NCBI GenBank assembly: GCA_963971425.1
Contig: OZ020518.1
Span: 13,398,190 to 13,462,189, forward strand
Direction of reading: 5' to 3'
DNA from: Bryoerythrophyllum caledonicum
Lineage: Eukaryota > Streptophyta > Bryopsida > Pottiales > Pottiaceae
DNA: 64,000 bases
Position 1 is the stretch's first letter. Every line of letters starts with the position of its first letter. Shown piece by piece: positions 1 through 58,599 of this stretch. Position numbers and translations under genes: made by a program. The notes beneath the pieces were generated by a model. That model had not been told where the DNA came from. It saw only the letters and a list, made by a program, of their open reading frames with translations, and ran no database searches.

Positions 1-58
1 TGTATGTTTAGAATAAAATACGTGGCTGTATATATGGTCTACCACTGACCTTTAAGGA
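1..58 (+). repeat. Tail of a dispersed ~200-bp repeat
   Basis: These bases resemble the last part of the repeat seen more fully at 2846-3005, 6060-6275, 30785-31018 and 31019-31240: an AAAATAC block, then a 'tatacata-cggttc' type block, then 'tgac-tttaagga'. The copy is cut by the window edge. The family is probably a non-autonomous transposon; no coding capacity is visible. Confidence 0.45.
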
Positions 59-745: not shown

Positions 746-751
746 AAAAGG

Positions 752-1000
752 ACGGGGCGGGGATAGGGACGGGGGCGGGGGTGGGAACGGGGACGGGGAC
801 GGGGACGGGGACGGGGACGGGGGACGGGGGACGGGGACGGGGACGGGGACGGGGACGGGGACGGGGACGGGGACGGGGACGGGGGACGGGGACGGGGGAC
901 GGGGGACGGGGACGGGGACGGGGACGGGGGACGGGGGACGGGGACGGGGACGGGGGACGGGGGACGGGGACGGGGGACGGGACGGGGACAGGGGCCGGGA
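752..1000 (+). repeat. GGGGAC / GGGGGAC simple repeat
   Basis: About 40 copies of GGGGAC with some GGGGGAC units give an almost pure G/A/C strand about 250 bases long. Long open frames cross it on both strands with Gly-Thr, Gly-Arg or Pro-Val/Pro-Arg dipeptides, but these only reflect the repeat period and are not genes. The G-runs could fold as G-quadruplexes on the + strand. Confidence 0.95.
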
Positions 1001-1060
1001 CGAGATGGGGACTCAACACAAAAAATTGTTGTGTCCGGAGGACACGGGTAACTCTCTAGT

Positions 1061-2065: not shown

Positions 2066-2240
2066 AGACCTGGGGAGAACCGGAGAGAACCGGGGATACC
2101 CACGGGAGAATCGGATACCCTCGAGAGAACCGGGGATAACCTCTGAAGAACCGATATACCCTCGAGAGAATCGGGGATACCCTTGGGAGAACCGGGCATA
2201 TTGCCGAGAGAACCGGGGATACCTCGGGGAAGTTAGAAGG
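2066..2240 (+). repeat. Tandem repeat, ~22-bp unit (GAGAGAACCGGGGATACC)
   Basis: Seven or so imperfect copies of 'gagagaaccggggatacc' plus a 4-5 base spacer lie head to tail. All three frames are fairly open on both strands, which again reflects the repeat and not a gene. The flanks carry no recognisable coding sequence. Confidence 0.85.
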
Positions 2241-2244
2241 GGCA

Positions 2245-5200
2245 CCCCACCCAATTATACACCGTGGTCCCCACACCCCCTCCCACTTTTCTCCAAATAC
2301 TCTCCCTCCACTTGGCAATATCTAGAGGGTCTCATCCTAGAATCGGAGATATCCGTTTCTGCATTTATTACATTTCCACACATATTTAATTAGTTTTGTA
2401 TTTTCAATTTATACAAATACACAAAAGGAATGAATTATCTTTATTTGGATAAACTAAACCATATCAATTTGTATAAGTGGCCACCATGCTCTTTCATATC
2501 CAATAGCAATGAAGAGTTTAAAACTCCTTCAATACTAATTTAAGAAATCCTTCTTAGATTTTCTTTTTAATTTCGTACGTTTTGTTATTTTTTATTAGAC
2601 TCATGCTCACTTTCCTTACATTAAAAACAAGATTATGAATTGTTGGAATCATCAATGATAACATAAAAATGATTTTCAATGGAGAAACTTTTAGAATTCA
2701 AGGCTTTACTTTTCATGAAGGGAGGCTTGTTGGATCTTTGTTGCTTTTCCAAGAAAGCTGTATTTGTAAATTCTCTTTACAAGTCCTCCCTCCCTTTTTT
2801 TCCCCCAAAGTCAATCTAATTTCACCACGTGTTACTTTATCCTTAAATGACAAGGTTCAAATATTGAAATGACCTCTAGATGAAAGATGTTAGTTGAAGA
2901 ATCTTCAATCTAAAGGAGTAAGTCTTACTAAACTTTAATACATTTTTCATATTTTACAAAGTAAAATACGTGTTTGTATATACAATTTCCAACCGACATT
3001 TAAGGATTAATACAAAGGGAAAGATAATAATATTAATCAATAGTACAAAGCTTGAAGGGTTGGATGGTGTATAGTTACCGACATATTATTTGTTTATAGA
3101 CATATTCCATAAATTGTTCTTAATAAATGAAGGATTGGTTGCGGTTGGGGATAGACCCTTAATATTTTAGTCATGCTTGCAACAAAAGTCTATCATGTAG
3201 GTAGCAAATTATTCAAACCACATGAATCATTAATAACCCAATAGATTAACCATCTCTATCCATGCCATATTAAAGGCAAAAAGAAAAATAGATAAATATA
3301 TTAGCCATGTTTGACTTGACAAAATCAAATTTTCTCAAGTAGTTTGATATAACTTGGACAAAATCCTCTCATTTTAGCATACAGCTAAGACTACCAGGTC
3401 ATTTGGAGTTCTACACCCTCAAAAGACACGTTTAATTGATATTGTTTCTCACCATAGTCTTGAGCCTTTGATTTGAATAAATACTTTCATTTTTCTTTCA
3501 ATGGACTAAAGGTCCATATGTTTCAACCGAACCACCACCATCATGACAACAACAAATCAGTTATATAATTTGGAAAATGAGATGATAAGTCAACTTTGCA
3601 ACCTCTATTCTCATTGTAAATTCCAAACTTATAATCTCAATGCATTATCTTCTTGCCATTATAGACATATATAAAGGTCATTGATTCCGACTACAACTAA
3701 AGACAACTCCCTTAACTACAACCTTGTTGGTTTTGCCTGCTATATTGAGAGGTTGTTCTAATAGAAAGGGGAGGAAAATGAGTGTAATCCAAGTGTTGCT
3801 CTAATAAAGGGAGAAGATCGATTCCAATTTCAAGTGGCTCTTAAAAATAAATTGTTGTTGTATCAAATGCTTGTATAAAGAAAGCTGATTGTATAGCATT
3901 TGAAGTGACTTGTGTAAAACCCTTGATAAATTTATAGGTTCAATACAATTTTCTTTCTTTCATAATATGAAAATTTTGCCACCATGATTCATGTACTTTT
4001 CCACAAATTTTTTGAATGTAGTAAAGGTGTCTAGCACATTCAAAACAATTATGCAACGTGAAGGGGTCCAAACTAGAATGAAATATGTATTAATTTTTGA
4101 GCTCTCATTTTTTCACCAAATCATAATCCAAATGGTGAAAATATAGTTTTTTTTTCTCTTGAAGTTGAAAAAGAATAAATTAAAAAATTCAATAAATTTT
4201 GTATATACAAATGTATAAGGAGGAAAGATTTTAGCATGGTGCCTAATTTTTTTTACTGCTTTAGGAATGAAATTTCGTGTTTAAAATTTATTTATTTTAT
4301 TATTTTCTTAGAATCTTAAAGAAGGTTATATTGGGTACTTATGTATGAAATCTCAAAGTATACTCATGTATCTTTAATGGTGAAAGTCTTATCGCAACGT
4401 GAGCCCAAACTAAGAAATAAAAAAAGAAAGGCTGGAATAATGCAGTGAGAATGAGGCAGTGTGAGTATACAACAACTATAAGACCTCATTCATAGCATGC
4501 CTATAAGAATGATATCCGTAAATAAATTACATGGTATAGTATTAGATGGTAGATTGTTTAACATGTTTTTTTTAATAATCTTTGAATTAGTACAATTCTA
4601 TGATGTAAATGACTTGTATATAACATTTAAAATATACTAAATTTCTCGTTATTTACATTTTCTCCAAATTTTCAGATTATAGAAAAGATTTATGATTAAA
4701 TTTGTATTAAATTTTTTTATTGGTTTGTATTAAAAGTCAAGTTTTATTTATTTATTTTTATTTGATGGTTTTTGAAACTTTATGCTATCAATCTTATATA
4801 AATGTTGTTTATGAAGTTGCAATGCTGCATAAAAATCTAAAGTTCATTCAATTATTTTTAAGTAAATAGGAATTGCGACATTATTTAGTTAATAGGAATT
4901 GCGATTATTGTGACTTTTTATACTTGGGTGTACAATGCTTTGTGTGTCAATCACATTTACTTCATAACACTACAAGTGGTCTTGGACTATTAACATATGC
5001 CTTTCCACTTTTAGATACTTCTTTGACATCTAAGCCCCATGAAAGATCTTAAAATGTAGCACTATAAATTATGGTTGGCTAGTCCAAAATTTTCCTAGTT
5101 GTTACATATAATATCAACAAAGGTCTACCTTTATCAATTGGATACTATAAAAAATAGTTTTTTCTTTGTGACACAAATAAGTACCTTCAAAGCATATGTA

Positions 5201-5500
5201 TAGTGAATGTTTTTGATACTAGTGATTCTAATGTTTTTAATAATTGATGACCACTTGTCACAAATATATTGCCTACATTGATGAAGGTCACATTCATCTA
5301 TGCACTTTGACAATACACATTATGTTACTACATTTAGTAAAATTTGCAGCTCTTGGACATTTATTGTCATTCATGAAATACATCTTTTACTACAATTGCA
5401 AATGCACAAAATAAATCTAATTACATGATTGAAAAAAAATGATTTAAAAATCACTGTATTTAATTGAAGTTGATATTATTCTTACAAGACTAGATTTTGA
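2245..5500. other. AT-rich intergenic region
   Basis: About 3.2 kb of AT-rich sequence with no recognisable exon or RNA gene. It contains one partial copy of the dispersed repeat (2846-3005). The last part lies just downstream of the kelch gene, whose 3' untranslated region probably extends into it. Confidence 0.5.
2846..3005 (+). repeat. Dispersed ~200-bp repeat, partial copy
   Basis: Shares with 6060-6275 the ordered blocks 'gatattgaaatgacctc', 'agatgttagt-gaagaatcttcaatc', 'aatacattttt' and 'acaaagtaaaatac'. Divergence between copies is substantial, so this is an old family. Confidence 0.7.
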
Positions 5501-7685
5501 TCATGACATATAACATATTTCAGATAAATTTACTGAATCAAGTTGGAAAAGCTTAAAAGGGCAAATAATATCTTGATCCCATGTTACTTTGCAAGTATCA
5601 AAATCTATAGTGCCATGCCATAGTTGATGTAACCTAAACCCATAAGGAGAAACGAGAGTATATACTTCGAGTTTTTTGTTTGAAGATTCTACAACAACAA
5701 GATCATATACTTGACAAGATGGATGATAAATGTAGTCATTATCAATGTAAAAACTCAATGGTATTTGATCTCCTTTATACATATCTACTTGACCCTGCAT
5801 AAAAACATATATATGAGCACATTCGAAAGATAGTATTGTAATTAAATAAACTACATTATTCTAAAAAATATGATTTTGATTAAAAAATGCTAGGTATATG
5901 CAAAGTCTTCAACTTCCAATTCCCTTCTATAGTATGAATATTTGAAAGCTATTATTTTAACTTACTACAAACTAATTTTGGTGATTGCTTCTACATTAAG
6001 CAACATCAAAGTATATACTTCCTACCATATTAGAGCTCTTATCATCAAGTTAACCCTTTAATGTTAGAAGGTGCCAGTTGTGGCCACAATATCCCACATG
6101 TGCGATGTTGTGTTTGAACATGATAAGATTAAGATATTGAAATGACCTCCAATGGAAGATGTTAGTCGAAGAACTTTCAATCCAAAGGTGTAAAGTTTGC
6201 TAATTTGTAATACATTTTTGATTTCTACAAAGTGAAATACACTGCTATACATACGGTTCACGATTGACGTTTTAAAAAAAAACTCTTGCAATTCTCTTCA
6301 CATGAGATTGTACTCAACTTTATAATTATCATAATTGTGATTTTTAGTGAATGGAAACTGTAAAGTTGTGGTGACAGAAAGAAAAAACAACTTGAAATTT
6401 GAGATTAATACCTACCCTGAATATTGACAACTTCCAACCGTGCATGAAGGTTGCTTTTGTCGATGGGTCCAAACCCAAATATAATAATAAACATTATCAA
6501 TGAACTTACATGTAATTGGCCATCATAGAGAGTGGTATTCTGAGTGGCTGCATCATAAGTAACAAGTGTGCCATCAACGATGTCAAGCACCAAGTGACTG
6601 GAAGCGGATGTGCAACACTTGGAGAAATCAAATTGCACCGTGGTCCAATTCCACGTCAAGAGGTCATACACTCGAGCAGAGTTGACATATGGTTCAGCCA
6701 GAACATCCGGGTCAAGAATGTCATACCCATAAGCGAAAATCTGATTATCAAGCGCCAGGATTCCATTGCAAAAGAATTGCACATCCACCATTTCGGGCAG
6801 GCGATGCCATGAGTTGTCGTTGACATTGTAAACCTCAGCCGGGCACGTGCCACCTACCACATAAATAAACCCCTCCTGGGCCACACATTTCACATATGCC
6901 CTTGAAAAATGCATACTTGCACACGGCTCCCACCACCAATGCCCCTGTGGAATGCTCCACACTGACATACGGTGATTTTAGGGTTGTCACACGTCCAAAA
7001 CACAAAATAAAAAACAAAACACAAGTACTGACCACAAGGCCGCATATTTAAGCTAGAAGGAACAAGTGGGTAATGTTAAGAAACATAGAGGAAAACATGA
7101 ATACTTCCACTATCAAAGGAAGCGAAATGGATGATACAGGCATGTTGAACTTACAAAGCCAATGTTGAGCATGTGCATCTCCGCACTTTCTTTTGCTTTG
7201 GAACGATCTGGAATGCCACCCATGACAAAGAGCTTTCCATCCCAGCAAACAAAGCTGCAACGCAAAGGGGTTTCCGATGGACATGAGGGGATGGGTGGTA
7301 GTCGGTGCCAGCATTTATCTTGCATATCATACATCTCAATTGCATATTTCTGAAGAAGAAAAATGTCGGAGGATTCATCATCCGAATCCTGTGATGAAAG
7401 TCGTGCACTTGGGGACATGGAGAGTTGCTCTTCATCACACATGCCCGGGGAGTTTCCTCGCAATTCATGGATTAAAAATAATCCACTGGGTTTGTAAAGT
7501 TCCTTTGTACGAGCATCCAAGAACCTGCAATTGAGAAACACTGCTTTCCATGCCTTTGAGACGGAGAGCATGCATGGTCGTACAAACCATGAAAGCCTTG
7601 GTAGTATGAAATGCGTCACAAGCTGATCAGGCAACCCTGGTATGAGTTCTTGCTCCACAAATTCTTGCTTGGAGATCGCCATCAA
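5501..7685 (-). CDS. Kelch-repeat (F-box/kelch-like) protein
   Basis: Probable substrate-adaptor protein of the plant F-box/kelch type. The first exon (7685-7155) starts MMAISKQEF and contains 'LPDQLVTHFILPRLSWF', an F-box-like start, then an acidic Ser-rich linker and the first kelch blade ('CWHRLPPIPSCP', 'LFVMGGIPD'). The second large exon (about 6975-6510) carries further blades ('IYVVGGTCPAEVYNVNDNSW'). A short exon near 6450-6415 joins in phase to the last exon (5794-5501, TGA stop). The GT-AG pair between the first two large exons (GT beside 7155, AG before about 6970) does not join the two frames cleanly, so either that junction is different or the copy has a one-base indel. The F-box is weak; a plain kelch protein is the alternative. 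Confidence 0.75.
6060..6275 (+). repeat. Dispersed ~200-bp repeat inside a kelch-gene intron
   Basis: One of the more complete copies of the family, lying between the last two exons of the kelch gene. It begins near 'ttaaccctttaatgt' and ends near 'gattgacgtttt'. Two further copies lie back to back at 30785-31240. Confidence 0.75.
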
Positions 7686-10234
7686 TCAGTCAACCTGGCA
7701 GTTTCCCATGTACCAACATCTCACAGCTTCAGTCTGACAATTTGGTAAGAAATAGGGTGTATCTAATCCCAAAGCAAATGGATGATATCTCAAGTTGGAA
7801 ACGTACTGCTTGAAGAAGTTTCCAGATATCAAAGCTCACATATTTTAATATTTGGAATGATCTTCAACAGGTTTTCAAGATTATTACCCTGATCTTTAAC
7901 GTCGTAACAGAAAGCTTGAAGAGTTTGAAAAGAGTTCACGTGAAAAGGTGAAAGTGGAAGACAGAATTCCTTGAATTCTGATGACTTTTCATGGCACCAA
8001 TAAAATGAAGAGACAACTTATTGTCAGGACCATACCAGCTGCGCCTTTGGGAGATTTTGAAGATCCTGTGTAAACGCATTGGACTAGTTCTGCTCTGACT
8101 GGGTCTTCCCAAATCTACGAAAGTCGACTCGAGGTGGGACAAACTGTGCCTCGAGGTGTGTGCCTCGAGGTGAGAGCCAGCCTGAACACTAGCAAATCAT
8201 TACCGTCGCATCGAGTCACCACCTTGCAACAGTCCAAACAGCCAAGTCAGTAAGTTCCAAAAAGGTGCCAGGTTTGCCTGCCATGGCGCAAACAACTAGA
8301 TACAGTACTTTCAATCGTGGGAAGCGATGTAAACAGTGGCACTGTGGCCATGCTTCAATCATTGTCAATCCATGATGCCGCACCTGCCCCCGAATGGTCA
8401 TTAGGTGAAGATGATGACTTGCTATCCTGAGTCGGCAGCGTCGTGTATCTAGGAACGCGGTGGGTGGAGTACTAAATCCGGGCACAGTCGAGCTACACAC
8501 TTCCCAAGTAGCTATCATCATTGCACTCCTGCTACAGTAGCTTTAACAGGATCATCGCACGACGAGGTTCACTGGTGCAGTCAAAGCTGTTGTTCTCGAG
8601 TCTTTGCATAACCTCCAAGCAGCGAATGAGATTCGATTGTGCTGATTCGTACAGTAATGGAAAGGTGTACAAAGTCCGGTGGCGAAGCCCATTTATGGAA
8701 TTCCCCATCTATTTCTGCTGCTGCTGCCACTCCAATCTTGCATCCACTGGATTCGGGGAATCCGCTCGATCCACTCGAAGACATGTGTATCTGACCAATG
8801 GAAGTAGCTCGCCAACAGGGTAGCATCTGTAGAATCCAAGGGGCCCCTCCAAAGATCTGAGTTCTATGGTATAGCTTGATTCTCTGACCTGATTCACTAG
8901 AGGAGCATCGCAAGATGAGCTTTCTCCCCTAGAGTAAGTACTTATTGGATACCCTACGCGTTGGTCGGGTTCGTACATTTTGCATGTTGGTAAGTCCCAC
9001 TTCGAATCTCATAATATTCCAGCTTATCGACTCTCGAGAACCGCGGCGGCTGAATGCCACATGATAAATGAGCACACCTTCACGCTTGTTGGACCACCCA
9101 GCAGCCATCATTGCTTCAGTACCGAAGTATGTACAGTAACTCTGACAGGTATTGTTGTAAATGGTGCACAGGCTTGAGATTCTGAGCTTTGGATCACTGG
9201 GTGGATATTCAACTGAACTTGTCCTCGAACAATTTGTAACCTCAGATCGTTCGAAGTACTACCAAGCTGAAATCCGTAACTTGAGGGACCTGTCTGATGA
9301 GGGAAACTGTGAGGACCCCAGTACAGGAGGTGAGAACATCCCAGAGGTTGTCTGAGGTGCCTCGCAGAAGCTGATCCAGTTTCATCGCATCGAGGAATTA
9401 GACTTGAGCATCCCACCCTCGCATGTGAAAGCATTTGACCACTGCCAAACAGATAGTTTCTTTCCTGAAACGCACGTTGCGCTCCTTCTGAAGGTATTTT
9501 GAGATCTAGTTCCTGATCGCCAACAAGTTGTATGTCAGTAAATGGTGAATGTTTCTTTGGTAACCTTGATGCTTAGCTATATCGAAGTCTATAAGGTTCA
9601 TTCAGATGCTGGCCTTTGTCTGGAGTGCAAAAGTAAACTTAGCATTAGATACTAATGCTATAGGTTCGAAATATATACAGTTCAGGATCTGTTCCTAACC
9701 AAAATAGCATCATAGAGACGAATTTAAAGACTAGTATCCCTTATCATTCTTGGTTGGACGTTGGATATTTCTTGGAGTTCTGCATAACTCTTGGGTCTTG
9801 GAAAACGGGAAAATAGAAGTTCACAGAAACAGAAGCAGGGCAAGCATGGCAAGGAGAACTGAAACATTGAAAGGGAAGTAGCTCAGCTAGTATGGTCTCA
9901 AATCAAGTGATAGGATAGGTACACTTACATGATATATCGTAGTCGTTGAGAGTAAGGGCTGGCATTCACCACGTTACTCCATGTAATCGGCAGAACTCCA
10001 TGCTTTGTGAAACAAGATGTCACCTTCTTTTCTGTGAAAAGTTTGAAGTGTGAGTAGTATTCAAATCATGACACCCTCTACTCAAATATGGGGTTTACTT
10101 GTAACCATCGTAGTCTAACTGCATCAACAACGACTAGTTGAAATATTGGCATCATGTCAAGGAACCTCTCAAAGTTCTATTCCACTTTACAGATCAACTT
10201 ACTTTCTGAGGTGTATTGTCGGTGCAGTCTCAAA
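7686..10234. other. Intergenic between kelch and dioxygenase genes
   Basis: About 2.5 kb, with higher GC than the first 5 kb. Many short open frames but no convincing exon. Around 8108-8170 'cctcgaggtg' occurs three times. At 8946-8980 lies a motif ('acgcgttggtcgggttcgta') also found near 360-392 and inverted near 30,567-30,597. Upstream regulatory DNA for both neighbours is likely, but no specific site can be supported. Confidence 0.4.
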
Positions 10235-18076: not shown

Positions 18077-18086
18077 CATTGAACGT
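18077..18086. repeat. 10-bp target-site duplication, left copy (CATTGAACGT)
   Basis: CATTGAACGT lies immediately outside the left terminus of the Mutator-like element and is repeated in the same orientation at 29195-29204, immediately outside the right terminus. The flanking bases differ (A on the left, terminal G of the element on the right), so the duplication is exactly 10 bp, within the 8-11 bp range of MULE insertions. Confidence 0.9.
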
Positions 18087-18129
18087 CAGGATTGCTATCT
18101 TGTGAGCCGTGAGCGGCGAGCGGTGAGCA
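18087..18129 (+). repeat. Left terminal inverted repeat of the MULE, built of heptamers
   Basis: After CAGGATT the sequence GCTATCTT is followed by four head-to-tail heptamers: GTGAGCC, GTGAGCG, GCGAGCG, GTGAGCA. This matches the inverted right end over about 40 bp with several mismatches. Repeated heptamers at a terminus look like an array of transposase-binding sites. Confidence 0.88.
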
Positions 18130-18748
18130 CTGAATTTTTTTGTTTTTTTTTCACAATTTTTTTACAAAATTTGAAAGCAACGCCTATGGCCGTTGCTTAT
18201 ATATAGTCTATCTTGACATATGAAAAAATCATGTAAAACTCTACAATATTTGGACATATTGAAGTCTGAATTGATGACAACTTGATGGGCTTAGAGCAAA
18301 AATTTTTCCTCAAAATGAAAGGGGCACTTATGGGTTTGGTATATAGGTTAGGGTAACAAAACAGGTTTGAATTACTCATTGGTCGTATTTGTATTTATTT
18401 CATTGAGAATGGAACTCTCCCAATAATTTTAAAATTAAATGGATTAATAGAAGGCCATACCCTTACAATACATATATGATATCCATATAATACCGGGGCA
18501 ATATCCATATAATACCTAGGTGATACCCGTGGTGTGGGAACCACCTTTAATTGAGAATTTGTAATACTTCAATAAAAATTGTTTGATACTGACGATTGCG
18601 TATGGTACGAAGCACGGAAACACGTTCATGTTGTTCAGCGTACTATGAAAGACGTGGTAAATTCTCAAACACAATAGATAAACGATTATACTGAAGATAT
18701 AAAAAAACAACACGCATTGTTAACTGGCTAAAAAATCAAATGGATAAT

Positions 18749-21700
18749 TCAAGTTTCCTCCCCTGATAGATCGTCCGAGCTATCCTCATAAATACCAGGC
18801 GAACTACTATCCGTACCACTACCAACCGCTTCTCCGTCTATGAACTGCTCTACTGCGGACCTGCGCTGGGCTACTCATGAAATCCGTGGAGGAGATGGTA
18901 ACGCAGCCATCGCATGTGCAATGCCCCAATCCCAAGGATTCATGTGATACGAGCGAGGCGGAGTCATCAAAGACCGTGACAAGCGCGATAGCATCCTAGT
19001 CTGAGATGTTGATGGTGAAGCCATCAACGACGTCGACTGACTGCATTGATCAAATAAAACGTTGATGTCAACGAATTAAAAAGATCAAAGGCAGTAAACT
19101 TCAGAGCAAAGTCATTTAACAAAACTCAAGACTCTAAACTTACTTACAAGTTCTCTTGCGAGCTCTCTTCACCTCGGGCTCGTCATCATCGACCTCCAAT
19201 GGGCGTTTTCTGGATCCTTCTTCAACCGGTATATTGACTGCTGACTCAACTTCCAAGATACTGGGAATCAAAGGGCGCAAGACCTCATCCACCAAATCAG
19301 CTTCTTCTTCTAATGCAAGGATGTGGCGCTTCAGGGCCATACATGCCTTGATGGATGCACCTAAACGGTTGAAATAAGTACGATGAAGTTAGCAGCTGAT
19401 GGTAATTAAACAATGACAGAAGAAGAACACGAAAGAATGCTTACCAGTTGATGTTGTAAGATCAAGGACGATCTCATCTTCCTGGGTACAAAGGTCAACA
19501 AGAGCCTCCATGAGGTTGGAGGACTTCTCACGAGCTCCACGCCATGGCTGGTTGGTGGAACCTCTCATCGTCAAGGTCTCCTGTGTGATCAGATTGGTCA
19601 AGTGACCATCTGATGACAACTGAATCCCCTCCAGCAATAATTCCATTCTATCATTGAATGAAAAAGGAACCCAAGGCTCCAAGTTCCTCACATAGCACTT
19701 CACCATGAAGCACTTGTGAGTGCGCCCGGGATAGCCCTCGCGTGAGAGAGACAAGCCGTTAATGGCAAACCACTTTGTCTCCTCACGGAAGTCTGCCCAC
19801 TCTGCCCATGCATGAAGCTCGTTAGAGATGAACTTCGAGTCCGGGTAGAACACGATGAGCGGTGCCCCGTCGCGAAGCAAGGCTTCTGCCATCTCAAAGC
19901 ACCGATGAATCCATTGGGATTCCCGCTTACCTCCATCAAACTGTTGAGTTGGAAGTATGTTCCAACTCGGCACCACACCACCGCCCTCAATTCCAGGGAC
20001 CGGCAAATCCTCTGGGACATCAAAAAGAATCATGTCCACTAAACCGTCATCGCAAGGCTCTCCACGGTGATGGCGCAACCGCGACCCGGAATGTACCTTC
20101 ATGAACTCCAGCATCTCTGACCAAACAGATGGCAAGTCATCCTCTTCAGCTATATTATCGAACAGAGTCATAACACTAAGAGCGCCATTACAAATCACCT
20201 CCACTCCGACATTAGACTCCAGATGCTCCACCGCTGGAATGGTGTAGATCGTCTGCGAAGGCTTGGCCACATAGGTGGAGGGTCGGCTACTGCCCGAGGG
20301 GGAAATGCCTTGTGTCGGTGCCATGGCAGCTGGAATAGCAAACGCTGCTGCCCCTCCAAGTTGAGCAAACAGTTTCTCAGGCCCCTTTTTGCCACCAATG
20401 CTGCCAACTCTCTGTTCCTCTCCCTCCTCTCCTTCTTCAACGTCTTGGCTTTGAGATTCTCCACCCTCAAAGCTTCCTTCTCCGCCGCCCTTTCCACAGC
20501 CTTTGCACGATCTTTCTCCAAGAGAGAAGCGTCAACTGGCTCAATCGAGGCAGAGACAGAAGATGGAAGCATGTCGCCATCTCCACCGATGGCTAGGGTG
20601 TTACAGTCCCTTCGAAGCTGAAGTTCTTCACCCAGAGTAGGATCAGAAGTCTTCAACTCTAGGTACCAAGGGCACTACCCCAAGTGATGTCGAGAGAAGC
20701 GTTGCCTCTGCTGCTCGGTGAAGATGCAGTCTGGTGAAGTAGGGTCCGTCCACTTCTTGAAGCGGATGGGCATTTGACTCGGTAGCAAGGCACCTTTAGC
20801 GACGAGCTCCCTCCAGAAATACCGAAGCACCGCCCGCTTCATGGTCTTCTCACATCCCTTCTGCTTTAAAAACTCCTCCGACTTCGACAAGACACCTTTC
20901 CTCCCAAGGTGGTCTTTGAAGGCCTTCGCCCACAGCATGATACTCCAAGCCTCCATCCAAGAACCAATGTCTTGAATGGGATTAGGGAGCCCGTCATTCC
21001 TCAATACGACGTTGTCCTCTTCAATTAGCTCCGAGAACTTCTTCTCAATTTCCTCCTCCAACTATAACATACAATACAATCTCTTAGACAAAATCACCAT
21101 TAAATATGATAACGCAAATACAATAGACAATGGGGATTTGGAATACTCACCCCAGCCCAAAAGGCAGCAGTATCGATCCATCCCCGGAGACTCGTGTCTG
21201 ATGCTGGCGATTTGGGGAAATTATACTCCGCCCTACTGTCCTTGCTCATGTTCCACCACTTGCACCATCTTCCCTTGAACTTCCCAGCCACCTTTGCCGT
21301 GTAAAGGAGTTGGAGCTTCTCCAGTGTCATCTTTGGCTTAGTCTGGTAAATATCGAAATCACGCATCACCTAAAGTAGAGGCACATGTACTTGGATTCAG
21401 TTATGGTTCGATACTTAAGCAAAATGATACAATATGGGAAAAACAAGAACAGGTGCCATCAAATTTGATATTCACATACCTCCTTGAAGAATTCCTCACC
21501 GTTCGATGGATTTGCAATCGCCAACATTCGTATGAATGTTGTTTGACAAGCAATTTTCTTCTTTTGGACAGCATCAATGCAGAGTCTCACCAACTCTGCT
21601 GGACTTCCAACGCGATCAACACCAACGCCTGTGACAAGGCTATCCTTGTAATTGCGTATGCACTCCTCTTGGGCAGCAATAATCTCCCGCTAGAAACCAA

Positions 21701-22866
21701 CGTTCATCAGAAATAGATAATGAATATTAAACAATTACGGAACTAGGCAACAATAGTAATTGAAATTTAGGTGTTCACTGACAAATACCTCAAACATGAG
21801 CTTCTGAAATGCGTCATACGTCATGTGATACCATTTCTTTGTTGCCTTCTTCCCCCACTCGTGCACACTTGCTTCGTAATCATCATCGCTAATCAAGCCC
21901 TTCAACTGCTCAAAGTCCAACAATCCGAAATGTTGGACCCTCTTCAGCTCATGTGATAAATGCTGCGTGACGTGATCAGCCTCTTTTTGCCTAGAATACC
22001 AAAACCATTACTTAGATACGTGCATGAACAATATAGATTTGTACCACCTAATACGACCATGGCATTGATGATAAATGGAGAATAGCATAAATATTATTGA
22101 CAAAAACTAGGTGGAAGGAATCTTACTTGTTAAGATCAGTCATGGCGTTGAGAAGAATGTGGCGGTTTGCCAAACACGGCTCTAGAACCACTGCCCTCAC
22201 TGGTGAATGGAAGATGAAGTCCCGAGTGTGCATCTGGGATATCACCTCCATCCACGCAATGTGGCGGTGGTTGCCATTCCAGATGAAGAAGTACTTGTTT
22301 GAGAACGACTGCAACTCTGGCCTCATCTGCAACATCATCTCAAACTTGCGATCCTCCTCTTGCCAAAGTGTCGACCAATTGGCTCGCTCAGAAGGAAGCA
22401 CCTCTTGCTCGGTCATTGAGAAACTCTTTGCTGCTACATAGAAACATGTGGATCCGGGTCGATATCCCTTCACGAACTCCGCCTTGAGCTTCTCAACATC
22501 AATCTTCAAGGGGAGACGAAGCTTTGTCATAGATAGCATGCGGCATAGTGGAATGAGTAGCTCCTCGATTGAAGGGTAGAATGACCTTTGCAGGACATCA
22601 GACGCTGTCCCCCGAATAGACTTCTTCAACGCTTGCTCGGTCGATTCCATCTTGGAGTCGCCCTCCAACTCATGCATCTCTTCATCCTCAAGTTGATTCA
22701 TCGGATCTAAACCCTCAGTACATGATACCGTCCCTAGTTCTTGTTGTGCCATCTGAAATATTGTAGTACATTAATAACATCATCAAAGATCAGACGAAGC
22801 CAGATAAACTCTCTAACTCAGAACGCAGAAACATACCTCATCGAGGAGAACGCTAGCTCCAGTCAT
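18749..22866 (-). pseudogene. ParB-like / beta-class amino-methyltransferase-like fusion gene, cargo of the MULE
   Basis: Eight exons join in phase: 22866-22837, 22752-22127, 21990-21789, 21689-21480, 21369-21151, 21063-19445, 19360-19144 (second GTAAGT donor) and 19040-18749, about 1,138 codons. Exon 2 contains 'YFFIWNGNHRHIAWMEVI', resembling the GNHR(x)xA core of ParB/sulfiredoxin-like domains. The long exon has a charged coiled coil (about 20,540-20,400) and then the order typical of beta-class N4C/N6A DNA methyltransferases: 'VDMILFDVPEDLP' in place of DPPY (motif IV), 'RGAREKSSNLMEALVDLC' (pre-motif I helix) and 'DEIVLDLTTSTG' (motif I, FxGxG-like), continuing across the next intron with 'ALKRHILALEEEADLVDEVL'. 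The DPPY and GxG residues are degenerate, so activity is doubtful. Defects: TAG at 20675-20677, a one-base loss in an A-run near 20,390, and TGA at 18875-18877. The stops fit CAG and CGA with C-to-T changes. Function is inferred, not shown. Confidence 0.6.
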
Positions 22867-22965
22867 GGTCATAAGAATGGACCTAACGTTCCTTGTGCGC
22901 TACTGATCCACCGCCGCTTGAAACCAACAGAAATACCTCAGCATCGAGCATGCAATCAAATTCCT

Positions 22966-23710
22966 AAAAAATCAGCTGCGTACCTCCTCCACGTGCACAA
23001 CAGATTGCAGCAAGTTGCCCGAGAGTCCTCACGCGCGAACCTGAACTTAAACTCCTAACCTAAACGCATCAAACCAGCACCTCAACTTTCACAAAGAAGA
23101 CGAAAAAAAAAACGACGAGCAACAGGCCCCACGAAGGAAAAAAAAAAACGACATACCTCAGACCACCCTCGGATCCAAGGGTCATTTCGAACTCCCAGAT
23201 TTTCTTAAAAAATCAGTTGCGTACCTCCTCCACGTGCACAGCAGACTGCAGCAAGTTGCCCGAGAGTCCTCACGCGCGAACCTGAACTTAAACTCCTAAC
23301 CTAAACGCATCAAACCAGCACCTCAACTTTCACAAAGAAGACGAAAAAAAAAACGACGAGCAACAGGCCCCACGAAGGAGAAAAAAAAACCGACACACCT
23401 CAGACCATCCTCGGATCCGAGGGTCATTTTGAACTCCTTGATTTTCTTAAAAAATCAGCTGCGTACCTCCTCCACGTGCACAGCAGACTGCAGCAAGTTG
23501 CCCGAGAGTCCTCACGCGCGAACCTGAACTTAAACTCCTAACCTAAACGCATCAAACCAGCACCTCAACTTTCACATAGAAGACGAAAAAAAAAACGACG
23601 AGCAACAGGCCCCACGAAGGCGAAAAAAAAACGACACACCTCAGATCACCCTCAGATCCGAGAGTCATTTTAAAGCCTCAAATTTTTTAAACAAAACTGC
23701 TTACCTCCTT
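22966..23710 (-). repeat. Tandem repeat, ~241-bp unit, three copies plus a diverged fourth
   Basis: Units begin near 22,971, 23,212 and 23,454 (period 241-242), with a diverged partial copy from about 23,690. Each full unit contains CACGTG (inside 'cctccacgtgcac') and an A-run followed by 'cgacgagcaacaggcccc'. On the - strand each carries exon-end-like sites ('GGAG|gtacgc' and 'CTGAG|gtatgt'). It lies just upstream of the start of the methyltransferase-like gene, so it may be a promoter array or a duplicated leader exon. Confidence 0.9.
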
Positions 23711-23988
23711 GACGAGCGCACGAGATTGCAGGCCGGAGACCTCTACGGTTAACTCATCCTCCTTGAAATGAAGAGCAACAACCCTAGATGGAGGGAACTC
23801 GCGCCTCTAGGAATACTGGGGTGGGAATTGTAATATTATTGGTTGACCCCCGATTCGCGGGATCGTCGCCAACTCAGAATATCATGGCGCTTAGAGTACA
23901 TATGAATGTACAATATGTCTCGACGGGAGACATTGAGACCCTAGGAGTACTATTCGGGTTTTACGGGAAGGAAGTTTAAGAACAGTAC

Positions 23989-24615
23989 CTGAGGCGATGA
24001 GCCTGGTCCTGGCTCAAGGAGTGCTGGGGTTTTGCTGTTCTTACTTCGATGATGAATTCTAGCTAGACTTGCGAGTGTTTGAGCTGGGGAAGTGGGGATG
24101 ATCTCTGTAGGCCTTGATGGATTTCCTCGGCTTCCAGATGCAATAGTTGACTTCATCGTTCGACACTGAGACTCCTCAGAACTGTCGTCAGTCCCCTTAC
24201 CTCTTTCCAACGAGGTATCCGAGGCACTTGATCTCTGATACCAACTCATCGTATTAGCTTGATCTAAGTCCTCTTCTACTCTCTTCCCACAAAAATGCTT
24301 ACTAGGCCTGTTCACCTGCACAATATTGGAAGACCCGTAGTCATTCCCTAACACCATTCAACTAATCTGCTTCAGAAATTTCTGCAAATCAATGGAACAC
24401 CAATAAAAGAATACCTGATCGTTGGAACTGGATAATGAAGCTCCTTTGTGGATAGTTGTCACATCCCTAAGTTCCTTACTAGATATTGCGCCCACTACTT
24501 CTATATTGTGAGAAGCTAATAATGCTAGCTTCTCTCGACGTCTCTTCTGAGCCCGTACTTGCTTAGGATTTGAAAACTTAGTAGGTCTTCTCCTCTGTCT
24601 AGCACTCTTAGTCAT
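23989..24615 (-). pseudogene. Small basic protein gene in the MULE, function unknown
   Basis: Exon 1 (24615-24415) starts 'MTKSARQRRRPTKFSN' and is very rich in Arg/Lys ('RAQKRRREKLALLAS'), like a nuclear-localisation or DNA-binding segment. It ends at a GT donor. A second exon (from about 24,390 or 24,372 to 23,989) is in phase, but has TGA immediately before an ATG near 24,357, again explicable as CGA to TGA. The product is Ser/Thr-rich further on. It could be a separate gene or the true 5' part of the methyltransferase-like gene, which starts 1.1 kb downstream on the same strand. I do not recognise a family. Confidence 0.45.
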
Positions 24616-25219
24616 CCTCTTAACTCAACCCTAAACCGTCATCTCCAGTCCCTAAACATCACAACCCAGCAGGTAAATCACAAACCTATAGCCACAACTG
24701 CAAGGACGCAACCGTGCAATTATACATAACCCTTCATGCTACCTTCGACGGGTGGTAGATTCAGTTCTCGAAAATATTGGATCTTGACAGTCTTTAGTTT
24801 AAATGGAGACAGCGTTGTAGTCTCTATTAATGTTACTTTCACCATATATATTCTACTGTAACGCTCAAACTCCATATTTTTAGGGATATCCAGCACCACA
24901 ATTGAAAAATGACTGCAGGCATGGTATTAATACAATAGGCAACCCCTCCGTTTCAAGAAGCCCCGATTAGATTATTTGATATATTAAGATATTTATGGAC
25001 TACTACAAGCATGATTTACTTTGCATTTTGTCGTATCCGTCCAGGAGGAAAGAAAATTGTTGCATGAGCATCCTACGTGTAATATGAAATTATTATCCCA
25101 CCGCAAAATGGTTCATGAACCATCTTATTTAAATGTGGACGCAAGCAGTTACTCATTCTCTTTCTTCAACCCGAGGTCATTTCACAAAGTTGTTCAACCT
25201 TCTTTGAGAGCCCTGGAAC

Positions 25220-28200
25220 ATGGCGTCTCTTTCATCATGCCGAGGGGGCATTCCTTTTCTCATGCCTGTTGATGAACGGGGCACTGTCAATGTCGCAGAG
25301 TCTTTGCTATGTCTTCGTTTCGGATTTAGGAGTAGAACGGTTTAAGTGGAACAGGAAGTATTTGATAGTGATGGGATTCACACGCAATCCGTTTATCAAA
25401 TAAAAGATCGTGATGCGGTAGGATTTGTGTGGAATTTATGTTCAGGTTCGTTCAAAGTGTACGGTGTGTTAGATGCTCAGATGTCTGGTCATGCATCTAT
25501 AGTGGCCACCACTTCTTCGGAGGATTCCGGAGATATAATACTCATACGTGCTTTGGGCACGAGGTCTATCCCGATTGTCCATACACTTAGCGACATAGAG
25601 GAAGAAGATGTCAGTGATCCTAACTTAGGTAACTCAAGAAATCTCAACAATTGTCTCAAGTCATTCCTTCCTAGTATGTCTATTTCACCCGCTTCGATAT
25701 CCGATACGTCCCAATCTGTTTCACTAGGAAAGCCACTCGTCGATCCCAAATCCAGAAGAATACGGAGTATTCTTTTACAAGTGCGTAAAACAGGTCTCAG
25801 GAAGGGGTCCAGATCGGAGTTGTCACAAATTGATCTAGATAGTCTAGAATTGAAGAGTGTGAAGTACTTGCCACCAAATTACAATGGAAACCAGATCTTT
25901 GAACTACCGCCACTTCCAGAGGGTATCCCTCCACAGTTTGGAGGGGGCCTCGATGGTATGAGTAAACAGTATGATGGTCACGCTTGGTGCAGGACGATGA
26001 CTACAAACATCAAGAACGACTTCGGCCTCACATACCAGAAGTCAATGTGTACCGGGCATCTCCAGTGTCCCAACGCAAATTGTGAATATATATGCAGAAA
26101 CGAAGGGCGCACGAATCAAACCGAGTGGAGCGGGTTTGCCTTCACCCCGTTCCCTGTCAATGGAGCACCTTCCGAGAAGTCAACATTGGCATGTAAGCTT
26201 TGTCGGACTCCTCCTATTTGTATATCTCTCTGTGATGCTCGTATCTACTACGTGACATCGACCGATCCGTCACGCGCTCGGGCGGCCATTCATCTTGGGT
26301 GCCATGACCATCCCATCTCGAAAGGCGTCGACCAATGCGCGATGGACGTTGTGCACGACTGTGTTGCCAAAGAAGTCCAACGCACACCGAAGGCTATGAA
26401 CTCCGCAATCATCATGGCAGCGAGCAAAAACTTTCTTTCTGACTACTTGATTCGTCCGGCATCCGAGTCATCAACTTTGGAAGGAGTTTCTATGGACGTT
26501 GTCCTAGATCAATTCGAGACACTTTCATCTCCAAATATTAGAAATCTTGTGTCAACCTGCAAGAGGTTCTACAGTGGTGGTAAGGGAGTGATGGACAACA
26601 TTATGGCCTTGAAGGAATCGTCCAAATTTGTGTTCATCCATGAGAACAAGTTCCCCGGTCAATCCAAAGGTAAAGTCTTTGTCTTCAAGATGTCAGTCGA
26701 TCGAGCAGGTAGTGGTGTGGATCTCGTCAAGCGTATGCAACCCGGGAATGACCTACAGGATTGTTGGTTGATGTTCGATCATGTAAAGCGGGTCAAAGAC
26801 TGGACTACCATGGCATGTCATGTATATGATAGTAAATATTGTCGAGTCATGACAATAGCCATGTGCGATATGCAATCCGAGGATGCCGACGCACAGCAGC
26901 TTTTCTGGGAGAATTTAAATGATACGATGAAGAACCATGGATTGGAGGCGACTAACTTCAAGGGCTTCATGGCGGATAGTGCTGGGGCGAACTGGCACGC
27001 CGTTCGTTGAGTTTACGGCAACGGCGACAAAGACAAGCCCATGGACAACAAGAAACGCACATGTTTATTCCATTGGACAAAATGCCTCCAGCGAGCCACC
27101 GCTCGGAACATTCTTGTCGGCTTCCAAGACTAGCATATTGCCCTTTGCAAGATCTGGAAGAATGCAAAGTCTCAAGAGGAGGCCGAAGCGCAATACAATG
27201 TGATAAGAGGGTGGTGGGTGTCCTCATGTGCCACTACTGAAGTAGGGCGGCGAGCTCTTGAGGATTGGATGGCGTTCTGGCACTTTCGGTATCGACAATG
27301 GGGCGGCGCAATGCAACTTGTAAGTTGTCTGAGCTTTTCATACAATCTATTCTCCAGTTCTAATTGTTATAGTTCTTTGAAATCATTTTATGACTCTCGT
27401 TGACTCCTGCTAGGATCTGACACTGGATGAGAGGGCGGACATGCCATAATGCAACCTCGCTGAAACCGTCCACAACCGGTGGCTTCAACAATCAGGGAAC
27501 ACGATGACATGCTTGTACGCTGCAACCGTGGACGACCTCATCCGTGCTTTCATGCAGATAACTTCATATCGTGCATGGTTGAAGGGTGGAACATCTGGTA
27601 CAGGACCCGACAAAGGCACGTTGAGGCTCCGTTCTGCTCAACGTTCAGGTGATCCCAAACTCATTGCTGAGGCTGTTAGAAACTTTCCAAATGCTGCAGA
27701 TCTATTAACCCGAACTGGCGGACTAGAAGGTTCGGAGATTTTTGGGTCAACGAAGCGCAAGCTTGATTTGCCCCCAAGGTCCGAACATGATTCTCACCGT
27801 TCCGATACGGTGAACTACTCTATTCCACGAGATGGGACGAGGGTGACTCGGGCACGTATTGAGGAGTCTCTTAGCGGTCACAACTCCGGAGTTCAGCACA
27901 CAACCTCCGTCTAAGAGTCGGACTGTGATCCATTGAAGTGGCACATTGCTCGTCTTCCAAAGAAGTCCGCTCGAAGATGCCAGGCATTGCAAGCTCATAC
28001 AAGTCAGCAATGCAACGCTAGAGTACAACGTGGAAGTTATGGAACTCCGGCCCCAACATACGCCGGTTTGAAGAAGGATTTCAGGAGTCCACGGAATGTT
28101 GCTGCGGAGTTTTGGTTTTGCCCTGATGACATTAGCCGTTGTGTGAAGGAATCGAAGCGATCATTTGTACTGGATTGGCCAGCAGTTCCGATGACGTGGC

Positions 28201-28780
28201 CTGTAAGTTTAGCACAAACCTAACAGTGCAGGAGGTTTTGGCGTTAGAGGAAGCTGGTTTCCAACTACAGCAACGTGGTGCTCTTTCACCGCGTAGACAA
28301 TTCCAAGTGTCTTTGGACATGCCCCTTCCGCGTTCCCACTTCTCGGTTCCCTTGAATCCGGATTCATTCCACACATTTCGTCACGGCTATGCGATCCGTA
28401 GGGGCTCGGACGTTCCCACAATTGAGCAACGCAATAAGTGGTCAAGCGCGGCTCTTATGAATAACTGCTACGTTTCGAACGTCATTGCCATACCATACCC
28501 AGGTTGGGGATGTGTTATTACCCTTGACATAGGCTCTGAAAAGTCCTATTGCATCACCTTTACAGACCTCCCGGGGTGTTCTTGTCCTGATTTCTTGAGA
28601 ATGCAGTCGGAGGCATTGGGAAAGAAGGGGCAGTGGAAGTATTACAAGCATGTGTACTACATCCTTCGTTACCTGTGTAAGATGGATTACAAGGTGGACG
28701 TATTCATGCACGCTCCCAGTTATAGCTTCAGCAAAGTGATGCGCATTCTCGAACTTGCCAACATTGCAGAACAGGCATGA
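25220..28780 (+). pseudogene. MULE-type transposase with zinc-binding N-terminal region and SWIM-like finger
   Basis: Encodes a DDE transposase of the Mutator-like superfamily. The start ATG at 25220 follows an in-frame stop. The N-terminal half has a Cys-rich FLYWCH/WRKY-GCM-like region ('CTGHLQCPNANCEYIC', 'HLGCHDHP'). The core shows 'CWLMFDHVKRVKDW', 'MTIAMCDM', 'GFMADSAGANWHAVR' (second Asp), 'RTCLFHWTKCL' (CxxH) and 'CNLAETVHNRWLQQSG' (Glu). After an intron (27320-27413) a CxC motif, 'GCSCPDFL', with a later His looks like a SWIM finger that has lost one Cys. In-frame stops lie at 25343 (TAA), 27008 (TGA), 27131 (TAG), 27447 (TAA) and 27912 (TAA), all one C-to-T step from CAA, CAG or CGA. 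A one-base shift near 28,200 moves the 3' part to another frame. Clearly inactive. Confidence 0.88.
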
Positions 28781-29145
28781 GTAACTCGAGTTTGTAGCAA
28801 AGATCAGACGTCGTGATTTGGTCTTAAGTAGCATCACAGAGTGAGGAAGATATCAAATTATACTTTTGAATTTATTAGTTAGAATCATGAATTCGTCACA
28901 TATGAGACATGATATTGTGCTAAGTAATAAATTGAATGTTTATAAAAACGTAGTCACGGAAGAGGAGAAGGCCCCAAGCCCGAAGTTGTCCAATACTGCG
29001 GTGACCACGGTTATAGGACACATTCTTAATTTAGTAAATTGTATCAAACTTTGTGTGCAATTCTTTCGTTTCTACGGTTTTTTCCCTGAATTTCACATTT
29101 TTTTTTTAAAAACACATTTTTTTTTTAATTTCTCAGAATTTTTAG
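28781..29145. other. Right subterminal region of the MULE
   Basis: Contains the 3' untranslated part of the transposase gene and, near 29,050-29,140, long T-runs. Similar T-runs lie just inside the left end (18,130-18,175), so the subterminal regions are mirror-like. No gene is visible. Confidence 0.55.
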
Positions 29146-29194
29146 GCTCCCCGCTCGACGCTCGCCGCTCACCGCTCACAAGATAGCGTCGCTG
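29146..29194 (-). repeat. Right terminal inverted repeat of the MULE, built of heptamers
   Basis: Read inward on the - strand it starts CAGCGAC, then GCTATCTT and five heptamers: GTGAGCG, GTGAGCG, GCGAGCG, TCGAGCG, GGGAGCC. It pairs with 18087-18129 and stops at the same relative point next to CATTGAACGT. Confidence 0.88.
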
Positions 29195-29204
29195 CATTGA
29201 ACGT
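29195..29204. repeat. 10-bp target-site duplication, right copy (CATTGAACGT)
   Basis: Identical to 18077-18086. Together they fix the element boundaries. Confidence 0.9.
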
Positions 29205-30021: not shown

Positions 30022-30628
30022 CCCTTAAAAGGTCCAATGGGGACCATATATTTAATCTTAGAATACAAAAATGTATTAAAGTATAGCAAGACATACACCT
30101 TTGGATTCAAGATTCTTCAAGTAACATCTTTATTTGGAGGTCATTCCAATATTTGAACCTCATCCATGTTCAAATATGACACCACATATTTAAAATATAT
30201 GACCATTTTGGCTTCTAAAGCATGAAGAAGGTGCAACAATGAATTAAATTTGAAATGTCATGTGTTACTCTATCAGGCTCTACACAAATACAAACTTTTG
30301 TAACTAGTGCATACATCAATTCTTACAGCTTGAATGTCATATACAAATAAAATATTACCTACTTGTCAAATGAATTATTTTTCATGGACACAGTGTTTTG
30401 GACACAATGGGTATCACCTAGTTATTACATGGATATTATATGTATTATACAGGTATCACCTATACATTATTCGAGTATCACCTTGATATTACATGAGTAT
30501 CATCTAGACAAATCTCTTAAATTGTCCAAATTTTGTGTACAAGCCCCATTTTTAATGAATTTTGTACGAAACTGACCACTGCATAGGATACATTGCAATC
30601 CAAATATGGCTTCTCAAACCTCAAAGGG
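30022..30628. mobile_element. Possible TTAA-flanked non-autonomous element
   Basis: TTAA at 30018-30021 is followed by CCCTTAAAAGGTCC. At the other end an inverted CCCTTTGAGG is followed by TTAA at 30629-30632. The ends resemble those of the well-defined TTAA element at 60673-61596 (CCCCTAAAGGACCA). The terminal match is only partial, so this is a weaker call. Confidence 0.4.
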
Positions 30629-43245: not shown

Positions 43246-43605
43246 AAGGTTTAAAAAAAACTTTTTAGAACAAATTTAAAAAAAACTTTAAGAAAAAAAC
43301 TGTTTGGAACAAGTTCTTAAAATAACTTTTAGGAAAAAATTGTTTGGAACAAGTTTTTAAAAAAACTTGGAAAAAAACCTCAAAATCTCCCCCCCCTAAT
43401 GTGAATCATTTTTTTCCTCCCAAAGATGAGGAGCCAATGGATGGAAAAATGCCAGCCATAGCCACTCTACTTCCATTGAAAAATATATTTCGAGACGAAA
43501 TAGAAAAAGTGAGAGAGAGTGGCGGCGGACGGCCTTTTATAGGGTGGCGGACGGCCATGAGGCCGACTGCCACCACGGCCGTTCGATCGGACAGTAGCCT
43601 CATTC
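43246..43605 (-). repeat. Right arm of the inverted repeat inside the hAT
   Basis: Reverse complement of 41937-42255, including the 'cctataaaagg' TATA-type box, the leader and the A/T-rich tract with 'aacttgttccaaacag'. The RING-gene start codon is ten bases beyond its outer end. Confidence 0.88.
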
Positions 43606-43615
43606 GGACATATCA

Positions 43616-45625
43616 ATGGCTCATACGTTTTCAACTATCACTCCAAGTGTGCTACAAGCTGCTGATGGCTTCGACACGTTGGCTTGTTCTATAACGCCAA
43701 TGTTAAAAGACAAGATCGCGCTAACTCAGAAAATGATGGATATGGAGGAGGAGGTCCATAAAAATGAAATCCTCACTAAACACTTTAAATGGGAATTGGA
43801 AGACAACAAGCGGCAGGTAGAGGCCAGTAGAAGACTCATTAACAAGATGTCGGAGAAGATGAATGCGCAGGTGCCTGAGGTGGATGTGGTGGTCATTGAG
43901 GATAGCGACGGAACTTTGGACGACCTCGCTCTTTCTAAGTTTGTTGGGAATGATGTAGAGGATGCCACACCGGTCAAATCTAGCAGATCCGCCGGGCCTT
44001 CTTCTGTTCAATTGGCAGTACCAGCTGGGAGTAGCCTAGTAAGGCCAGAAGCGCCTGGAAAATGGAAGGCAATAATGGAATGTGAGGGAGAGATGGAATT
44101 GATGTCACAGCAGTTGGTGGTGGCAAATAAGGAGAAGGACGAGGCACGAGCGGAACTAGAGACACTGCGGAGGACATTGAGATCGGTGGACGACACACCA
44201 TGGAATGAGAACACAATGCTTTGGTTGGGTTGGGTTCATCGCTTTCAGGACATGGAGACCATGTTCTCGAAAGCACAACACGATCTCAAAAAATTTGCTG
44301 CCGAATCACAAGAATCATGTGAACTCGTGGATACCTCATTGGAAATATTGAAGAAATTCGTTAGACAACATGGACATGAGTCCACGAAGATTACTATTTG
44401 GGATGATGTACCGGAGATGATGGATCGCACAAACTATCATCGGAAGGGAAAGAGCCATGGTATTGACTGGGCTTTAGAAGTGGAAGAAGGATGGATGCCC
44501 TACAATACCTTCTCATCACATTTTGTAGAATCGGACCGAAGAGTAATTCATACTTGCGACCATGTCCCGGCATTCCTCAATGACAAATGCAGCTTGTGCC
44601 AAGATCATTTTGGTTCGGAGGGAGCGTATAAGTTGGGCCAATGTGATCATAACTTTCATATTACTTGCATTTCCGCAGGTTCTATGATACAATCGGCGTG
44701 TCCTATGTGTCGCTCTCCAATTAGCACAAGATTCTACGAAGTGATGGGAATAAGAGATGTTATGCCACCGGGGCACGAGTTCAACCAATAGAATCTCCCC
44801 TTGGATGAACTTCCGAAGAAATCCCTGAACTATTGTGAGTGGGGAAAACCACTTATGTGGAATAGTGGGTTTTCTTGTCACCAACTATACGAGGAGTATG
44901 GGATGGAAATTGATCCATTATTTTGGATGACACAAGCCTATGAGGTGGAGATACGAACGCAAGAGATTGAAGATGGCGAGCAACAAAAGTTGTTTTGCCG
45001 CAACTTTGGGGGGCATTGGAGCACTGAGCACAAGAGTTTCTTTTGATCTCCTTCAAGGAGAGCTGAGAAAGGAGAAGATGGTGTATGGCATGAGGTAAAC
45101 GATGGCATTGAGTTCAGAGATGAGTACAAGAAATACAATCGTACTTTGGTGGGAAGAGCCTTGGTCCTTGCAAAGTTGGAAGAGGCCGCAAAGCTACGGA
45201 GTTCAACGGAAGAGGATTCTTCTAAAGACGTAGACTGTAATTATTGGGATGCGGTGCAAACATTTGATCGGAGGATTGGAGACATCATTGGCTATTGGCG
45301 GAACGTGCTACAGAAACCGGAAGGAAAATTATTGGTATTATTCTCAGAGAATGACGCTTCTGTGAACAATGTGGTGGAACGAATCAAAAAGGCCTTGGAA
45401 ATCTTTGTGGCGAAGGTGGATCCTGGCGGGAAGCAGAAAAGGGATGATGGCAATGACAGCGATGATAGTTGGTGGTCGGAGATGCATAGAGAAATTGCAG
45501 CCGTGGATCGAGAGTACGAAGAGGGGGGAGGATTGCTAGGCCAAGCCAGAGACCGCGGACTCGTAGTAGCACTCGAACGGATCATACTGACGAGCCTTTT
45601 TCTTCAAGGCAATAGAATGTGGTAG
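43616..45625 (+). pseudogene. RING-finger, coiled-coil protein gene inside the hAT
   Basis: One frame runs for 670 codons, interrupted only by TAG at 44789-44791 and TGA at 45044-45046 (one C-to-T step from CAG and CGA). The N-terminal part is coiled coil ('MMDMEEEVHKNEILTKHF', 'ELMSQQLVVANKEKDEARAE'). Around codons 330-370 is a RING-H2-type finger: 'CSLCQDHF', 'CDHNFHITC', 'CPMCRSPI'. The C-terminal third has no recognisable domain; it is acidic with 'WDAVQTFDRRIGDIIGYWRN'. RING proteins of this type are usually ubiquitin or SUMO E3 ligases. It sits in the same element as the hAT transposase, convergent to it. A captured host gene or a regular accessory gene of this hAT lineage are both possible. 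Confidence 0.75.
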
Positions 45626-57702: not shown

Positions 57703-57712
57703 AGAACCATCT

Positions 57713-58561: not shown

Positions 58562-58599
58562 CAAAATTCTCCTATTTTTAACATTACTATTTAGGGCGA

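Follow-up and report, generated by a model that had tools for sequence, protein, structure and literature searches.

A high-copy MULE-like transposon family of Bryoerythrophyllum caledonicum with an amino-methyltransferase-fold gene and palindrome arrays

The window analyzed here, the whole 64,000-nucleotide stretch of Bryoerythrophyllum caledonicum contig OZ020518.1 (positions 13,398,190 to 13,462,189), contains a copy of a Mutator-like element (MULE), a member of a high-copy family of MULE-like DNA transposons and not a one-off insertion. That the element is MULE-like and has a second gene encoding an amino-methyltransferase fold we regard as close to certain. The family carries at least two, and probably three, genes of its own, namely, a transposase, a divergently oriented methyltransferase-fold protein, and a small basic open reading frame (ORF), and the second protein, encoded by the element, is most likely a sequence-specific factor for regulation or anti-silencing. 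To the entire chain, from element identity through palindrome recognition to anti-silencing, we give a probability of roughly 0.45. The limits of the window copy are as follows.

18087-29194: MULE-like element, window copy, 11,108 bp
18077-18086: left target-site duplication (TSD), CATTGAACGT, matching 29195-29204 exactly
29195-29204: right TSD, CATTGAACGT, an exact 10-bp repeat of 18077-18086
18087-18131, plus strand: left terminal inverted repeat (TIR), starting CAGGATTGCTATCTTGTGAGC, with near-identical starts in four further copies (L055-L058)
29150-29194, minus strand: right TIR, found with 0 to 2 mismatches in 28 bases in 12 of 20 sampled copies

A sequence-only reading of this DNA had proposed a MULE with inverted ends and a perfect 10-bp duplication, enclosing a Mutator-type transposase and an oppositely oriented multi-exon gene, and all of these components are present: the TIR arms (18094-18128 and 29153-29187) are 91% complementary over 35 nt, the TSD is exact, and both genes lie inside the termini as a divergent pair, with the transposase on the plus strand and the second gene on the minus strand. 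The TIR pattern matches twice within the window and never in 100 shuffles, and a TSD of 10 bp, within the 8- to 11-bp range, together with the TIRs, fits a MULE. Both main genes of the window copy are broken relative to open relatives.

Searching the genome (437,360,962 bases in 894 contigs) with exon 1 of the second gene returned at least 150 scored matches from 1805 candidates, 57 to 100% identical and including the window's own, many of them without stops; the genome counts given throughout come from samples or partial lists of the copies. Twenty other copies were picked by hand (identities of 60 to 94%), and 9.9 kb was fetched 5' of the second gene in each. The transposase lies beside the second gene in 15 of these 20, always divergently (116 transposase matches on one strand, 0 on the other), being partial in L039 and running past the fetched stretch in L051. 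The 12 copies with a closely matching right terminus differ in the flanks beyond it, and L053 has this terminus in a 6-mismatch form. Five copies were also read 3' of the second gene: four carry the left TIR and, with it, exact 10-bp TSDs (AGTACAATCC, AGACCTCATA, ATAACTCGGG, and GGGAAGAGAT), and the fifth (L034/L054) has no left TIR in the 4.8 kb read. Counting the window, five of six copies read at both ends thus have both TIRs and exact 10-bp TSDs, with element lengths of about 11.1 to 13.6 kb, so that several further copies hold both genes between the same termini, as the sequence-only reading would predict. The second gene keeps exons 1 to 4 and the beginning of exon 5 in order at all 20 loci inspected around exon 1 (the window among them), these being the 20 best scoring and biased toward intact copies. 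Two copies (L036/L056 and L047/L057) have open main exons in both genes, and some members of the family look autonomous.

Median dN/dS for exon 1 of the second gene is 0.20 over 92 pairs; for the methyltransferase part it is 0.10 (L055-L056), 0.13 (L056-window), and 0.38 (L055-window, both decayed); and for the transposase it is 0.146 over 48 pairs. The second gene is under purifying selection and is therefore an integral gene, not a captured fragment. Copies of exon 1 on different contigs can lack any synonymous difference, which points to recent movement and to a recently active family.

The second gene and its methyltransferase-like features map as follows.

19024-22752, minus strand: second gene, amino-methyltransferase fold, seven coding exons placed by GT/AG splice sites and relatives
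22752-22127, 21990-21789, 21689-21480, 21369-21151, 21061-19445, 19360-19148, and 19040-19024, minus strand: its exons
Ending near 22837, minus strand: possible extra 5' exon
Near 20675 and near 20390, minus strand: in-frame stop and frameshift, respectively, of the window copy
20010-20021, minus strand: motif IV position, DVPE, aligned to DPPY of phage methyltransferases
19445-19473, minus strand: motif I position, VLDLTTSTG, with an intron splitting the last codon
22127-22752, minus strand: exon 1, with GNHR near 22264-22275, ParB-like by motif alone, its GNH conserved

Exon boundaries were finally chosen by eye on splice-site outputs; where eight exons were originally proposed, seven coding exons with GT/AG sites were placed, in addition to the possible 5' exon. 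The methyltransferase assignment survives in its fold and in its motif order, motif IV preceding motif I in the fifth exon (DVPE, then DLTTSTG), and fails in the identity of motif IV. AlphaFold and Foldseek, applied to a relative of the second protein, yield a Rossmann-type, beta-class amino-methyltransferase fold, the outcome that the sequence-only reading had anticipated from structure prediction. Across 23 sequences, motif IV reads DVPE in 16, DIPE in 2, DVPK in 2, and DVHE, DMFE, and DMPE in 1 each; the canonical (D/N/S)PP(Y/F/W) form occurs in none of the 23, and neither DPPY nor SPPY was seen among them. Relatives in the protein collection number 8 for exon 1 (78 candidates) and 22 for the methyltransferase exon (4143 candidates), both at E values up to 0.01.

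The accompanying proposal that exon 1 is homologous to ParB was not borne out. No ParB family appears among the Pfam hits, the structure model has a pLDDT of 38, and the comparison with a ParB profile, a thin one, is at chance, 76 of 100 shuffles reaching the real score. PHROG hits are weak (E values of 0.055 to 0.26, in 3 of 8 relatives), with a ParB family in 2 of those 3, and the candidate identity was set aside with nothing beyond these hits and the GNHR motif. Nor was capture from a phage or bacterium, also suggested at first, substantiated: tblastn against phage records (exons 1 to 4 and relative P0025) confirmed no phage homologue of the second gene, the best P0025 match having an E value of 2 and falling in an unrelated annotation, and IMG/VR confirmed no viral relative of either the second gene or the transposase. 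ParB-methylase fusions are themselves common in the phage records searched, and one has been described in bacteria (PMC5512222).

On the opposite strand lies the transposase.

25220-28780, plus strand: MULE-like transposase gene, with exon 1 at 25220-27319 followed by 27414-28780, decayed in the window copy

In the window copy, this gene is interrupted by one frameshift and by in-frame stops, at least five in number. Its relatives in the protein collection number 172 at E values up to 0.01 (5339 candidates), 120 of which are listed. In an alignment of 30 sequences, the window included, D477 and D543 are invariant and the C and H columns nearly so, and AET and SWIM patterns occur in ORFs of three of five loci scanned (L036, L041, and L047); we take the family to have the D, D, CxxH, E catalytic set and a SWIM-like C terminus. 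Pfam profile PF00872 (Transposase_mut) is matched by 2 of the 30 sequences (best E value, 0.034), and PF10551 is absent among the Pfam hits of the transposase sequences. Open relatives are L001, L036, and L047. The first of these occupies positions 2-3548 of a 4.1-kb contig (CADCWO010000080.1) in the cyanobacterial metagenome-assembled genome AVDCRST_MAG81, in two exon-like ORFs (PF00872 E value, 0.038; 13.3 bits versus a cutoff of 21). It is 78% identical to the window transposase in protein and 78% over DNA, and it is probably plant contamination.

Two features go beyond the initial reading of the element, a third small ORF and a palindrome repeated 5' of the second gene.

23990-24615, minus strand: third small basic ORF, two exons at about 24615-24412 and 24319-23990
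22961-23671: tandem array, 242-bp unit repeated 2.9 times, 5' of the second gene, with counterparts in other copies
23168-23179 (1 mismatch), 23410 (exact), and 23651 (1 mismatch): palindrome CTCGGATCCGAG, one per array unit

The third ORF lies between the two main genes. Of 20 sampled copies, 12 have a match to its first exon, and this exon is open in 12 of the 13 sequences compared (one of them the window's), with a conserved N terminus. Constraint on it is weak (median dN/dS of 0.62 and 0.69 for its two exons), and it is probably a gene of the element's own.

At no more than one mismatch, CTCGGATCCGAG occurs in 2 to 39 copies at 17 of 21 loci, usually once per unit of a tandem array whose units are mostly 220 to 275 bp, and its 10-bp center is present at 19 of the 21. 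In nine representatives the palindrome core is 98% identical, versus 33 to 47% for the flanks and 71% for the best other 12-column block. Genome-wide, pairs of CTCGGATCCGAG at array spacing number 324, with 0 for the reversed control, and among 22 listed array clusters, 15 lie within 3 kb 5' of a listed second-gene exon. The 3' side of the second gene has no CTCGGATCCGAG in the four of four copies scanned. The largest set was seen in L038 (G000:C11:1307870-1317770), where 39 palindromes at a spacing of about 243 bp run from 599 to 9838 as counted from the second-gene side.

Because a selected, methyltransferase-fold protein adjoins palindromes placed before its own gene, we propose an element-encoded, sequence-specific DNA factor. 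The second protein would most likely act on the DNA of the element itself. Either this protein or the small basic one would recognize CTCGGATCCGAG repeated between the divergent genes, and this recognition might hold the element's promoters open in the face of silencing by the host, the role that VANC has in VANDAL MULEs. Palindrome binding, anti-silencing, and any methyl transfer are steps that we infer.

Several observations weigh against this proposal. At one mismatch, the palindrome is missing from 4 of 21 loci (L043, L046, L052, and L053), two of which, L052 and L053, retain its 10-bp center, and Tandem Repeats Finder gave no palindrome array in L040, L042, L044, and L046, so that for the first three of these the claim amounts to two or three spaced palindromes. 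The nine representatives were selected as palindrome holders, and within arrays, where invariance equal to that of the core is seen in 4% to 51% of 16-bp windows, the core does not clearly vary less than the remainder of the unit. Of the 22 listed clusters, 7 have no listed exon nearby, on an exon list that covers 150 of the matches; their palindrome pairs (G000:C1:4101475, C2:21530418, C2:22065537, C3:20022172, C3:25476891, C3:32045399, and C4:6575318) may represent other subfamilies or solo arrays. Five of the 20 sampled copies (L038, L043, L044, L049, and L052) lack a transposase within 9.7 kb, and in L038 palindromes fill the stretch from 599 to 9838. The exon 1 dN/dS was drawn from the best-scoring copies, and loci are not independent of one another. 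Finally, a host factor could read the palindrome.

Of the competing explanations, the one that fares best, though we consider it improbable, is catalytic activity: the protein would be a functional amino-methyltransferase that deposits 6mA or 4mC, for example, at the palindrome's central GATC, and so marks or protects the element's DNA. The fold, the motif order, and purifying selection on the gene all agree with it, as do the conserved residues (motif IV begins with D in all 23 sequences, and of 17 sequences, 15 keep the D of motif I and 13 its final G), and bdelloids have an enzyme, N4CMT, that methylates transposons along with certain tandem repeats (PMC8885841). Motif IV, however, is DVPE or close to it, lacking both the aromatic residue and the second of the two prolines, and PF01555 matches 9 of 23 second-gene sequences at E values up to 1 (best, 8.3e-4), the window exon scoring 13.7 bits, below the cutoff of 26.7. 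Since changing SPPY to APPA abolishes N4CMT activity (PMC8885841) and the motif here is DVPE, plain methylation is disfavored, or else a changed chemistry is favored.

The same divergence of motif IV would suit a noncatalytic methyltransferase-fold protein that aids transposition, like mudrB, through DNA binding or end pairing, and MULEs with a second gene apparently needed for integration are known (PMC6446971); the palindromes, however, stand 5' of the second gene and not at the element ends, with none 3' of it in the copies scanned, and we think this account unlikely. We are equally doubtful that the array is an ordinary promoter or 5' untranslated-region satellite bound by a host transcription factor, its palindrome unrelated to any element protein: the arrays do occupy the presumed promoter region, and a direct protein link is absent, but the palindrome is by a wide margin the best-shared part of units that have otherwise diverged between subfamilies. 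Less probable still is an operator- or partition-like system, in which a repurposed prokaryote-type ParB/amino-methyltransferase, with DVPE as a new active-site motif, would bind the tandem palindromes, mark or insulate the DNA, and let the element evade silencing by the host. Chance capture of a host gene by the window copy, as in a Pack-MULE, was rejected, frequent as host gene fragments are in MULEs (PMC6446971), because the transposase and second gene are linked across most sampled copies, with exon order kept and purifying selection acting across copies.

Elsewhere, a 22-bp tandem repeat lies just outside the element (30407-30508), and its TAGGTGATACCC motif also occurs once inside the left end; matches to motifs of this type number 12, where shuffles average 3.25, a modest excess, but shorter forms come out close to expectation or under it, and this candidate was dropped. 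The remaining features of the window are as follows.

6405-7685, minus strand: Kelch-repeat ORFs
43598-44791, plus strand: RING-H2 finger protein ORF
47217-48839, minus strand: hAT-type transposase with DUF659 and a hAT dimerization domain
57683-62426, plus strand: retrotransposon pieces, comprising a weak aspartyl protease, reverse transcriptase, and integrase

The preferred reading of a sequence-specific factor, if true, describes a DNA transposon that has a methyltransferase-fold protein and, to match it, a repeated DNA site, the two kept by selection through the divergence of subfamilies and still present in near-identical copies, and points to a DNA parasite equipped with a DNA-acting tool of its own. 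The family makes it testable whether transposons other than VANDAL elements encode sequence-specific anti-silencing, and provides a naturally occurring amino-methyltransferase fold in which the active site is altered.

Among enzymes, the beta-class fold and the IV-to-I motif order are shared with CcrM, M1.HpyAVI, M.RsrI, PvuII, and bdelloid N4CMT, at 11 to 19% identity in structural alignments. Those enzymes have DPPY or SPPY where the window family has DVPE or near variants, and a DPFxGSG-type motif I in place of DLTASTG. By analogy, the nearest enzyme model would be N4CMT, whose action is on transposons and tandem repeats (PMC8885841). Selfish elements with DNA methyltransferase domains are known among retrotransposons, in DIRS elements with a Dam-like enzyme and in Symbiodinium LINE and DIRS and Klebsormidium Gypsy elements with DNMT, and purifying selection has been reported for the methyltransferase of the Klebsormidium case (PMC5890265). 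These carry Dam-like or C5 enzymes, whereas the window family combines a DNA transposon and a beta-class fold.

Among MULEs, the titles and abstract openings of the literature searched, which mostly excluded subscription papers, name no element with such a methyltransferase-like gene. MuDR (mudrA/mudrB) and other two-gene MULEs share with the window family a transposase with a SWIM-like C terminus, TIRs, an 8- to 11-bp TSD, and a second gene (PMC6446971). The additional ORFs and motifs given in the part of that MULE review consulted (FAR1, PMD, SET, ovarian tumor, DUF, and unknown) include no methyltransferase, a word that does not occur in its main text (PMC6446971). The nearest working model, again by analogy, is provided by the VANDAL MULEs of Arabidopsis, which are likewise multigene MULEs with a gene for an accessory protein, VANC, and with a short motif in tandem repeats of the element's noncoding DNA, such motifs being the targets of VANC (PMC5735166). 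VANC has DUF1985 and DUF287 domains, in contrast to the methyltransferase fold found here, and the motif and repeats differ as well.

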